Of a stretch of 64,000 nucleotides of DNA, positions 44,585 to 49,438 are shown one piece after another. A program made the translations under genes and the position numbers. The DNA is from Bacteroidales bacterium (GTDB taxonomy: Bacteria; Bacteroidota; Bacteroidia; Bacteroidales; FEN-979), in contig JANXZO010000036.1 in assembly GCA_025355465.1 (NCBI GenBank), positions 1 to 64,000 of the forward strand, written 5' to 3'. The notes beneath the pieces were generated by a model. The model did no database searches, had not been told where the DNA came from, and saw nothing but the letters and a program-made list of their open reading frames with translations. Position 1 is the stretch's first letter; every line of letters begins with the position of its first letter.

Positions 44585-45469
44585 TTACCTTAGCCCCGCC
44601 CAGGTTTTAAGGCCGTATTCGCCGGTTTTTGCGTTGAAGAAAATCTCGTTGGTGCCTGTTTTACCGATAAAGTCGAGGGTTTTTCCATATTGCTCCGTGC
44701 CTTTGCGAAGCCATTCGGGGAGGTCGGCCTGGTCGCCAACATGCATAAGCACCTTCATCTCCTCAACCAGGTCGTCCATCTTCTCCTCAGCGCTTTTCTT
44801 CCCCAATATCTCCTGTGCCTTCATCGAGATGGCAAGGGTAAGTGTAAGCTCTTTCATTGATTTCGAAATAGCTTGTCCCACCAAATCCATGCTGGCGATC
44901 TGTTCGATGCGGGGCTGACAGCTTTTTATCAGTTCTTCAGGCAGCATGAGGTTAAGTAGCCCGCCATACCAGGCCATGCTGATGATCACCATGTCGCGCA
45001 ACTCAGGGAAGCCATCGCCGGTAATGAGCTCCCGAACCCGTGTTTTCACTTCAGCAACCCGGCTGTTGTTGATCAGAATGGGGTAGGTGGAGGTTGTAAA
45101 GCCCAAAAAAACCCGCTCCTTTTCCATTTTCAGCAGTCCCTTTATCACCATCCCGCTTACTACCATGTTGCGGAATCTGCTGGCCTTTTCGGAGAGACGT
45201 AACAGCCACCAGGTGATCTTCTCCTGTTTTGGAGCGCGACCAATCATCTCCACCGGCTCATCCAGAAAGGGGATGCCGGTAGGTTCTCTCCGGTCGGGAA
45301 TAACCCATTCAGGATCTGTGTCGATCCTGTTGAGCAGCGCCAGCTCCATCAGGATGGCCGCTGAAAGCAGGATGTCGAATTTTTTTGAGCGGATCGGGGC
45401 TTTTCTCCCTGTCGTTTCATTGACGGTAAGCAGGAAGAGCTCTTCGGGTATGGTGAGGGTTTTTTCCAT
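44585..45469 (-). CDS. GPP34 (GOLPH3/VPS74)-like protein
   Basis: The 294-aa protein resembles the GPP34 family, known from eukaryotic GOLPH3/Vps74 and scattered through bacteria. The family pattern is seen in LTIPEELFLLTVNETTGRKA, LLSAAILMELALLNRI and VSGMVIKGLLKMEKERVFLG. In eukaryotes these proteins bind phosphatidylinositol-4-phosphate and sort Golgi glycosyltransferases. The bacterial role is not known to me. The start at 45469 is preferred because a TAATTTTG promoter box lies just upstream at 45493-45500, inside the alternative longer frame. It stands alone between unrelated genes. Confidence 0.78.
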   Translation of the reverse strand: MEKTLTIPEELFLLTVNETTGRKAPIRSKKFDILLSAAILMELALLNRIDTDPEWVIPDRREPTGIPFLDEPVEMIGRAPKQEKITWWLLRLSEKASRFRNMVVSGMVIKGLLKMEKERVFLGFTTSTYPILINNSRVAEVKTRVRELITGDGFPELRDMVIISMAWYGGLLNLMLPEELIKSCQPRIEQIASMDLVGQAISKSMKELTLTLAISMKAQEILGKKSAEEKMDDLVEEMKVLMHVGDQADLPEWLRKGTEQYGKTLDFIGKTGTNEIFFNAKTGEYGLKTWAGLR

Positions 45470-45492
45470 GGTCACGAAATAGAATGGATTAC

Positions 45493-45500
45493 CAAAATTA
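45493..45500 (-). promoter_or_regulatory. Candidate -7 box of the GPP34-like gene
   Basis: TAATTTTG on the minus strand lies 23 bases ahead of the ATG at 45469. It helps decide that start. Confidence 0.45.
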
Positions 45501-45563
45501 TTAATTTTACGCATAGCGACACCCGCGAGACATGAAGATCACGAAGAATATTGATTCTTTGCC

Positions 45564-46979: not shown

Positions 46980-47783
46980 ATGAAATCACTGAACCGCTAC
47001 TGCCTTATCTGGTCAATTGTTGCCATCATCCTGTCCGGATGCAAAAAGGAGGAAACGATTTACACCCCCTCGGGCCCTGATCTTGCTACACTGAAACATG
47101 CTTACAACCTGTCGGTCCTCGACGCAAAAACGGCAGAACCCTGGGAAATCTCGCGCAACCTTGTGGCTGTGAGTAACTATGGTGACAGTATGGCCGGACA
47201 GGGAAATCTTATCTGGTCGCCCGATTCTGCCGGAAAAATGCGGGTACTGGTTGTCTCCTGGATGAAAAAGAGCACCACACAATACTGGCCGGCTGGCAAG
47301 ACATTCAAAACCAGCAACAACCAGGCTTTTATGTCGTGGATTACCACCGCGCCGGAGATGGCGGGCTTTTTGAAGAAGAACAGATTTACGGACCAGTCCT
47401 CTCTTCACCTCCGGATCGCCCAGGTGCTGGGAATGCCCCCCGATACACAGAATGACTATTTTGTGGAGTACTGGGTCTACCCCGAAAACCTTTTCCGGCC
47501 GGCTCCCGATGCGGAGATTACCGACCATGAAGCAGGCCTCTGGTTTCCGTCAACGGTGACACTGAAACACAAATCGTGGTTCAACAACGAAATGAAAAAC
47601 AAATACGACACCACAACCACCAGCGCTTTTCCCTGGACCCGCCTGGGATATACCTACGACTGGGCAAACCCGCTACAGCCGCTTGGTCTGAGCGAGTTTG
47701 TGGTCGACACCTCTGCCTTGGTGACGGTGAAAAGCATCTACTCTTCGTGGGAATACTACCAGTTCAGCATGAGCCTTAAGTAA
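46980..47783 (+). CDS. Hypothetical lipoprotein
   Basis: The 267-aa protein has a lipoprotein signal (IVAIILSGCKKEE). The mature region contains many aromatic residues (WSPDSAGKMRVLVVSWMKKS and YFVEYWVYPENLFRPAP). I do not recognise a family. It is 18 bases downstream of the symporter gene and convergent with the riboswitch-controlled propeller gene, so it could be co-transcribed with the symporter. Confidence 0.6.
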   Translation: MKSLNRYCLIWSIVAIILSGCKKEETIYTPSGPDLATLKHAYNLSVLDAKTAEPWEISRNLVAVSNYGDSMAGQGNLIWSPDSAGKMRVLVVSWMKKSTTQYWPAGKTFKTSNNQAFMSWITTAPEMAGFLKKNRFTDQSSLHLRIAQVLGMPPDTQNDYFVEYWVYPENLFRPAPDAEITDHEAGLWFPSTVTLKHKSWFNNEMKNKYDTTTTSAFPWTRLGYTYDWANPLQPLGLSEFVVDTSALVTVKSIYSSWEYYQFSMSLK

Positions 47784-47836: not shown

Positions 47837-49150
47837 TTAATTTTTAATAAACCGGCCGGTCGCGATGGTGCCTCCGTTGATCAGTTTTACCAGGTAGATT
47901 CCGGGGGCGAAACCACTTACGGCAAACGTGATGCTGGTTCTGTCGGCGGGGTTTATTTCGCGGTTCAGCAGGGTTTGTCCCCTGGCGTTAAATACGGAAA
48001 TTAGCCCCGGTTCTGATGTTTCCGATCGTGATATTGTAAGTTTGTCGGTGGCGGGGTTGGGAGACAGGGTAAGTAAAGGAGGGGCTGCGTTTTCGACGAT
48101 GCCTACAGGATAGTTTCGGTAGTCGATGGCAATGCATTCGCTGCTCACACCGGTGGTATAGGAGGTGATCGAATCGCCTGCCAGACTGGTCACGAGACAG
48201 TAACCGGGATTGGTGTAATCGCCGATGTTGAGATAGAGGCGATTGGTAACAGAGTCGACGGTAGCGGCGAGAATTACCAGGAATTGCAGCGCTCCCGGGT
48301 CGGAGATCACAGTGGTATCAATAATCTTCTTGGTGTTGAGATCATAGCTTCCCAGTCCGGCATTCATGCGCAGGAAGAGGAGGGAGTCCTTGAGCCCTGC
48401 CCCGTTTCCAACTGTAACGGGGAGTATATGGTTCACAAAAGAGCCATCAGCCGGGTTATATTCGGTAATGGTTCCTGTGGAAGGCATTCCATAAGGTGTT
48501 TTATTTACCGAAAAGACCTTCCCGGCATAAGTATACAGGTTGAATATCCCGATGGCCTCAGGGCCGAAATTGCAAACATGGGTTACCGTCCATGAAGAGG
48601 GGTCGATCACAGCCAGTTTTCCTTCGGTGCCCATCCATCCGCCATTAACGGCCAGGTAAACGGAGTCGTCGAGAACGGTGATCCCCGCACATTCACCCGG
48701 GATGTTCTGCACCCTTGCCACAAGACTCAGGTCGGCCGTGTCGAGCACCTCCAGAAATCCTGCGGTGAGCGGGTACTGCTTGGAGATTAGCAGGCGGTTA
48801 TGGTAAAAACAGAGTTTATTGAGACCCGAATCGGCTACGGCGGCCAGTCGGTTCCAGGTGTTGATGTCGAATTTCACAATGGAATCCTGGGCTGCCACGT
48901 AGGCGAAATGATCGTTAACAATGACATCCTGGGCCGATTGGGTATTGATGGCTCCGGCTTGAACGGCGGCCTGGGTGGAGGGGTTATAGTGGGTGATGGA
49001 AACGAAGTCAAGGTAGGGGGGAGAGAATTCAAACTTACCGCTGTTCACATTAATAACCTGGTTGGTGTAGGCTGCACGTTGTGTAAATGCCTCATACGAA
49101 ACGGAAAAGAGCAAGACAACGATCAGGGTAATGAAATAGATTTTCTTCAT
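47837..49150 (-). CDS. T9SS-secreted beta-propeller, cobalamin-riboswitch controlled (BtuG-like)
   Basis: The 437-aa protein has a signal peptide (through SYEAFTQ), a YncE/DUF5074-like beta-propeller of about 320 residues, and a C-terminal type A sorting domain (LSPNPATDKLTISRSETS to GRFIKN). The propeller blades are visible as repeats such as HFAYVAAQDSIVKFDINTWN, GFLEVLDTADLSLVARVQNI and KLAVIDPSSWTVTHVC. A cobalamin riboswitch precedes the gene, which indicates a B12-linked function. The surface propeller BtuG of Bacteroides binds B12, and the fold and control here are compatible with an analogous T9SS-delivered protein. That function is inference. No btuB or btuCDF genes lie in the window. 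Confidence 0.8.
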   Translation of the reverse strand: MKKIYFITLIVVLLFSVSYEAFTQRAAYTNQVINVNSGKFEFSPPYLDFVSITHYNPSTQAAVQAGAINTQSAQDVIVNDHFAYVAAQDSIVKFDINTWNRLAAVADSGLNKLCFYHNRLLISKQYPLTAGFLEVLDTADLSLVARVQNIPGECAGITVLDDSVYLAVNGGWMGTEGKLAVIDPSSWTVTHVCNFGPEAIGIFNLYTYAGKVFSVNKTPYGMPSTGTITEYNPADGSFVNHILPVTVGNGAGLKDSLLFLRMNAGLGSYDLNTKKIIDTTVISDPGALQFLVILAATVDSVTNRLYLNIGDYTNPGYCLVTSLAGDSITSYTTGVSSECIAIDYRNYPVGIVENAAPPLLTLSPNPATDKLTISRSETSEPGLISVFNARGQTLLNREINPADRTSITFAVSGFAPGIYLVKLINGGTIATGRFIKN

Positions 49151-49211
49151 GATGAAGAGTTTTTAAGAGTGAATACCTTTGCATTTAACCCGAAAGCAAG
49201 TAATATGATCC

Positions 49212-49385
49212 TGGCAGGTCTTCTGGCTTGCCCATTCTTCCGGGTCTTCCCATTCCGCCAGGGCGGAACAGTGACAAGAGGAGATCGGAAGAATTGTTAG
49301 AAGGGCTTACAGCTGCGGGAACAGCTCCGGATTTTAAACGGATTCCCTTTTCACCTGAAATGGAAAATCCAAATCAGGCACCACG
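49212..49385 (-). promoter_or_regulatory. Cobalamin riboswitch
   Basis: On the minus strand the region begins near GGTGCCTGATTTGG and has the conserved GGGAAtccg-type segment with GGAGCTGTTCCCGCAGCTGT and AAGCCC, the hallmark B12-box region. It ends with GCAAGCCAGAAGACCTGCC. It lies 62 bases upstream of the propeller gene start. Binding of adenosylcobalamin would be expected to lower expression, as in the family. No other gene is supported in 49151-49438. Confidence 0.92.
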
Positions 49386-49438
49386 ATCATGTACTGCAAA
49401 AGTAAACAAAATATACAACCTAACAATTGAAAGTTTCC

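Follow-up and report, generated by a model that had tools for sequence, protein, structure and literature searches.

The gene at 47837-49150 on the reverse strand most likely encodes an extracellular corrinoid catcher. The window, which is the whole 64,000-nucleotide stretch of Bacteroidales DNA analysed here, carries this gene behind a complete cobalamin riboswitch, and its product is a predicted seven-bladed propeller with a type IX secretion (T9SS) tail. In the reading that we favour, to which we assign a probability of about three in four, the protein is a T9SS-delivered sister of BtuG that would be expressed at low B12 and would serve as an additional corrinoid catcher feeding the BtuB-BtuG receptor. 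A second, T9SS-tagged branch of BtuG propellers would then exist in 45 of the 295 genomes of the class that were searched, about one-seventh, the own genome included; in 37 of the 44 others the propeller holds a riboswitch-led position. If this is true, protein-assisted B12 uptake extends beyond the lipoproteins of gut Bacteroides, and T9SS cargo is tied to vitamin capture. The reading also makes it possible to name and test proteins in which family models detect only the sorting tail.

The riboswitch and the secreted protein

The features of the locus, all on the reverse strand, are as follows.

47837-49150 (-): coding sequence of 437 aa starting with ATG, secreted BtuG-like propeller with T9SS tail (open reading frame and relatives)
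49079-49150 (-): signal peptide, residues about 1-24 (sequence and model helix; cleavage site by eye)
48110-49075 (-): seven-bladed beta-propeller, BtuG-like, residues 26-347 (predicted model, fold and profile comparison)
47840-48064 (-): T9SS type A C-terminal sorting domain, residues 363-437 (TIGR04183, PF18962)
49196-49400 (-): complete cobalamin riboswitch aptamer (RF00174 covariance model)
49396-49404 (-): Bacteroidota-type -7 promoter box TAnnTTTGC (TACTTTTGC), overlapping the aptamer 5' end (sequence)
49179-49199 (-): small hairpin TTGC-TTTCGGGTTAAAT-GCAA, carrying CUUUCGGG, at the aptamer 3' end (sequence)

The original prediction placed a full cobalamin riboswitch at 49212-49385 on the reverse strand. 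The RF00174 match (49400-49196) spans the entire model, positions 1-189, and its score of 103.7 bits is far above the gathering threshold of 31.5 (E = 7.3e-25). It is the only Rfam match at gathering threshold within the window, and no other cobalamin riboswitch was found in the own genome, an assembly of 75 contigs totalling 3.54 Mb with 98.8% completeness, among the 150 of 178 candidates scored. The aptamer 3' end is separated by 45 nt from the ATG of the propeller gene. The CstA transporter gene (51310-49439, same strand) ends 38 nt upstream of the aptamer.

The consensus of the -7 box follows in part the excerpted text of PMC9723704; a TTG at 49424-49426 lies 19 nt upstream of the box. A TAnnTTTG box occurs in a range reaching from 40 nt ahead of the aptamer 5' end to 12 nt into the aptamer, both in all seven other riboswitches checked, six from the window's family and one from genome G049, and at 25 of 33 class-level loci. 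The sequence TTTCGGG follows the aptamer in six of the seven (G013 lacks it) and at 17 of the 33 class-level loci. The hairpin at 49179-49199 is a likely candidate for the expression platform.

The signal peptide claimed earlier is seen both as an N-terminal signal sequence and as a helix at residues 2-18 of the model. There is no cysteine in residues 1-30, and the protein therefore lacks a lipobox. The type IX sorting domain, likewise anticipated, scores 45.6 bits with TIGR04183 (cut-off 23, E = 5.1e-12) and 41.2 bits with PF18962 (cut-off 27, E = 2.1e-10). The T9SS translocon SprA is encoded in the own genome (TIGR04189, 2627 bits). Downstream, positions 46980-47783 encode, convergently with the propeller gene, a lipoprotein-like protein of 267 aa that neither Pfam nor NCBIfam matches, and positions 44585-45514 encode a protein with a GPP34 (Golgi phosphoprotein 3) domain, here in a bacterium (E = 2.2e-33).

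The propeller and its relation to BtuG

Nearly all Pfam and NCBIfam matches fall in the tail, and none identifies the propeller; for DUF5074 (PF16819) and the YncE family the window protein has no match at E up to 1. Sequence searches of the PDB, with the single sequence or a profile, returned tails and weak chance matches only. The propeller was therefore approached by fold and profile comparison. The AlphaFold2 model, built from 32 aligned sequences, has a mean pLDDT of 85.8 and a pTM of 0.70. Residues 26-347 of the model contain 28 strands, read as seven four-stranded blades.

In a Foldseek comparison with the PDB the first 13 ranks are occupied exclusively by BtuG chains (E = 3.8e-16 to 1.8e-13), followed by a designed propeller (E = 2.6e-11). 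In VIA-align, ranks 1-11 are again BtuG only, with Z of 34.0-30.9, rmsd of 2.3-2.7 over 296-304 residues and 12-15% identity; the first other structure is an archaeal YVTN propeller at Z = 30.4, and BtuK1 appears at rank 48 (Z = 26.3). BtuG leads these comparisons of a predicted model by a moderate margin, within a fold class of many members and without a null of its own, which is not proof of function. The closest solved structures are those of BtuG and not of an unrelated propeller. The "YncE/DUF5074-like" description in the original prediction agrees with the fold, but not with the family models.

Pairwise BLAST of the window propeller against the BtuG of the own genome gave nothing (E = 0.27), which counts against the relationship. 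Profile comparison by hhalign, in contrast to this single-sequence search, aligned the window-family profile with the BtuG family at 96.6% (E = 4.8e-10, 294 columns), and the class-wide profile at 99.4% (E = 3.1e-21, 291 columns, covering the whole propeller). The null for these alignments consisted of column shuffles only: the native score of the class-wide profile was 157 against 12-20 for three shuffles, and that of the family-only profile 79 against 15-21. Rotation of the BtuG alignment by one to six blades lowered the scores to 130-86 and 73-44, respectively. Blade rotation was rejected as a negative control because the blades that are left still align locally in their native register; it was used for the register instead, with respect to the aligned ranges only, and these remained in the native register. 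The profile alignment, together with the register kept on rotation, suggests a remote homology between the two families, with blades in the same order. Judged from these profiles, the window propellers and BtuG are sister families, the former divergent and T9SS-tagged. The "BtuG analogue" of the original prediction is BtuG-like as claimed, but looks like more than an analogue. DUF5074 itself matches two of the 32 relatives weakly (best 0.0025) and none of 41 sequences in the class-wide alignment at 0.001.

With strands assigned from the predicted model, the loops on the D-A/B-C face are more conserved than those on the other face (mean JSD 0.556 versus 0.494, p = 0.005), and 44 of the 60 conserved positions fall on it, versus 185 of all 311 positions (p = 0.019). 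The effect is only modest, which counts against the catcher reading. Both faces are acidic, and the one-sided charge reported for BtuG is therefore not reproduced by a charge count.

Relatives in the genome, the family and the class

A second propeller of this type was found in the own genome by a B12-receptor model search and ORF reading. It heads an operon on contig C56 (L047:7829-13756), in which a T9SS propeller of 435 aa, 40% identical to the window protein, is followed by a 332-aa T9SS protein, BtuB, BtuG and an OsmC-like protein. The best PDB match of this BtuB is 8p98 (E = 4.3e-72). The BtuG lipoprotein matches 8bmy (E = 1.5e-64) and DUF5074 (1.1e-23), and it is the only DUF5074 match in the genome. 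No riboswitch was found ahead of the operon. The gene for the 332-aa protein (L047:9195-10193) separates the propeller gene from btuB in each of the 13 complete operons of the family; the predicted fold of the protein has a pLDDT of 50.9, too low to be of use, and a PDB sequence search gave a single chance match (E = 0.87).

The earlier claim that no btuB is nearby agrees with the window, in whose 64 kb the BtuB, BtuG and operon-partner profiles found nothing among the ORFs, but not with the genome, where the btuB-btuG operon occupies another contig. The gene is alone locally, as was also claimed; since this operon is headed by its paralogue, it is probably not alone functionally.

The B12-binding domain has 11 matches in the own genome, eight of them over the cut-off, and CbiC has none, suggesting on these markers that the organism needs corrinoid from outside. 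The FecCD permease family, to which BtuC belongs, has no match in this genome. A DUF6580 protein is present (L183), and this family is a candidate inner-membrane corrinoid transporter.

Within the window's family the propeller is full-length or nearly so in 28 of 37 genomes. The copies read comprise 14 in operons and 18 stand-alone copies (one truncated), the latter defined as lacking the 332-aa protein, BtuB and BtuG alongside. Propeller, T9SS partner, BtuB and BtuG occur together in 13 of the 14 operons, the remaining one being cut by a contig end; the OsmC-like gene is not in all. A tree built from 44 propeller domains groups all 17 complete stand-alone copies into one clade (97/91); the operon copies of the family, 14 in number, stand next to it (91/82, not starred). 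The sorting tail was recognised in 32 of 32 sequences by Pfam (E up to 0.01) and in 31 of 32 by TIGR04183 (0.001) in the family alignment, which consists of 31 family members and G049.

An intact riboswitch over the cut-off precedes seven of the 17 complete stand-alone copies, a proportion that counts against the catcher reading. A search for weak riboswitches, with E up to 10, covered the upstream regions of the other ten (nine without a match, and G020) and those of the 14 copies in operons. It found none ahead of the nine and none ahead of the 14, the latter again counting against this reading. G020 has a remnant of 25.0 bits, below the cut-off (L066:1643-1815), in which the 5' half of the aptamer is kept, the rest is gone and the sequence runs into the propeller gene.

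All 12 family riboswitches over the cut-off, among the matches listed, lead to a propeller gene, which is a T9SS propeller in seven and a stand-alone BtuG lipoprotein in five (G009, G017, G032, G034 and G036; L060:986-2065, L061-L064). The coordinate distance from riboswitch to stand-alone BtuG is 42-46, compared with 46 for the window propeller. One of these five proteins was checked for DUF5074, and the other four match the BtuG of the window's genome with 30-31% identity in BLAST. The same five genomes contain no full-length T9SS propeller match.

The neighbours of the g8 copies were considered as B12 salvage genes and rejected as such for G007, where they are a CobW/HypB-like GTPase, a NifS-like desulfurase, an ABC ATPase and a sigma factor. 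In G049 the propeller (L055:1015-2703) belongs to a riboswitch-led full operon and has about 140 extra residues before the tail. This stretch contains the motif LVIDWNDG...WGYRFDG, has no PDB sequence match and is reminiscent of the fusion of BtuG with BtuH in Bacteroides.

The class-wide count was obtained with a profile of the propeller domain only, at E up to 1e-10, and amounts to 44 of 294 genomes besides the own. A cobalamin riboswitch is present in 39 of the 44, and 37 of these 39 have just one. In 34 genomes it sits directly upstream in the same orientation, at 122-448 nt from the point where the propeller match begins. Three others (G102, G135 and G319) have the order riboswitch-btuB...propeller in an operon. 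The pairing originally read from a single locus is therefore repeated outside the family. Many relatives, moreover, belong to btuB/btuG operons. The link is not shown in the remaining seven, which count against it: in G106 propeller and riboswitch lie at the ends of two contigs, their adjacency being possible but not seen; in G239 the riboswitch is on another contig; in G128, where the locus is cut at a contig end, no riboswitch was found; and G121, G158, G190 and G226 gave none under the stricter filters that apply to sets of more than 40 genomes.

Loci were fetched for 40 of the 44 genomes. BtuB is encoded in 11 of them and BtuG in eight of those 11. A DUF6580 membrane protein stands beside the propeller on the same strand in seven loci (L150:5591-6166, L155, L161, L143, L162, L163 and L172; Pfam confirmed two). 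BtuB or DUF6580 is thus found beside the propeller in 17 of 40 loci, and neither in 23, which counts against the catcher reading. At L150 and L161 DUF6580 is accompanied by Peripla_BP_2 and a Diphthami_syn_2 protein. The class-wide alignment of 41 sequences includes 38 of the 40 fetched loci, two partial ones being left out, with the window protein, its paralogue and G049; the sorting tail is found in 36 of 41 by Pfam and 37 of 41 by TIGR04183, both at 0.001. G061 encodes a 955-aa relative (L146:6681-9548) with two propeller matches and Ig/cadherin-like domains, behind a riboswitch spanning 350 nt. Relatives were absent from viral contigs, gave no match in plasmids, and were found on seven named Bacteroidales/Bacteroidetes MAG contigs.

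Proposed function and comparison with known systems

At low cellular cobalamin the riboswitch would permit expression, as expected from its family. The protein would leave the cell through Sec and then the T9SS, consistent with its signal peptide, its type A tail and the presence of SprA. Outside, the propeller may bind corrinoid on the conserved D-A/B-C loop face, as fold, homology and gene context suggest, and the bound corrinoid would pass to the BtuB-BtuG receptor encoded on the other contig. The protein probably works like BtuG yet is not a BtuG member: having neither a lipobox nor a DUF5074 match, it is not filed as BtuG. It is taken for an additional catcher and not for a substitute lid because the operon of the paralogue has a BtuG lipoprotein gene of its own.

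The propeller might instead be an alternative, exchangeable lid of BtuB that docks as BtuG does and has no action away from the receptor. This is a possible reading, clearly less probable than the additional catcher. It would explain the fold and blade register shared with BtuG, the operons shared with btuB and the five family genomes in which a stand-alone BtuG replaces the propeller behind the riboswitch. It would also suit G319 and G102, in which the propeller follows btuB and no BtuG match occurs in the fetched stretch (that of G319 ends near a contig end). However, a BtuG with the invariant cysteine is also present in 13 of 14 family operons, so that the lid position is already filled there, and the propeller has no lipid anchor of the kind that may act as a hinge in BtuG according to the excerpted text of PMC10404256.

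A bolder form of the catcher, which we consider unlikely, is that the T9SS sheds the protein, which would then diffuse freely as a corrinoid carrier. It would be produced only under B12 shortage, bind corrinoid away from the cell and be recaptured by BtuB-BtuG, possibly also by that of neighbours. Such a protein would be a bacterial "intrinsic factor" or corrinophore, comparable to a haemophore for haem.

Less probable still, the propeller would belong to the B12 regulon without binding corrinoid, as a scaffold or release factor like BtuL. BtuL and BtuK2, both from B12 operons, did not bind cobalamin according to the excerpted text of PMC12751083, and shared fold alone shows no function. Yet the top fold matches of the window protein are binders, namely BtuG chains, several of them with bound cobalamin, and BtuK1, also a binder, is in the list at rank 48. 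Finally, a chance or transient pairing of the riboswitch with an unrelated secreted propeller, for which the ten of 17 family stand-alone copies without an intact riboswitch and the riboswitch-free btuB operon of the own genome might be cited, is highly improbable and already contradicted by the comparative result: beyond the family the pairing recurs in 34 of the 44 genomes, nearly all riboswitch-bearing genomes have a single one, and BtuB or DUF6580 accompanies the propeller in 17 loci.

No paper linking T9SS cargo, B12 and such a propeller was found in open-licence PMC text searches. The B12 binders in the excerpted text of PMC8941943, PMC12751083 and PMC13398666 are lipoproteins, and the term "T9SS" does not occur there. 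In the available part of PMC9723704 a cobalamin riboswitch of Flavobacterium psychrophilum precedes a TonB-dependent transporter, a different protein. As far as their excerpts go, PMC12578637 names BtuG in the reference list only, PMC13055991 and PMC12016528 mention the T9SS and, in an unconnected context, cobalamin or B12, and PMC11287211 uses BtuG2 as a reagent. With T9SS type A cargo the window protein shares the signal peptide and the TIGR04183/PF18962 tail; cargo tied to B12 capture was not found in the literature searched.

BtuH, BtuJ (DUF4465) and BtuK of Bacteroides resemble the window protein as extra extracellular B12 proteins encoded in riboswitch-controlled loci beside BtuB and BtuG, but they are lipoproteins. 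BtuJ is a jelly roll, as described in the excerpt of PMC13398666, and BtuK1 matches the window model only far down the list. BtuL has been proposed to promote vesicle release in Bacteroides without binding cobalamin (PMC12751083, in excerpt). The nearest known system is BtuG itself (BT1954 and relatives; PDB 3dsm, 8bmy, 8okv and 8bai), a lipoprotein linked to btuB in the excerpted text of PMC6143338. The window protein differs from it in having a T9SS tail instead of a lipobox, in the low identity of the structural alignments and the missing DUF5074 match, and in the position of its gene, since the paralogue and not the window copy lies beside btuB. The two have in common a seven-bladed propeller in the same blade register, a B12 riboswitch, a family-level link to btuB and their occurrence in Bacteroidota.
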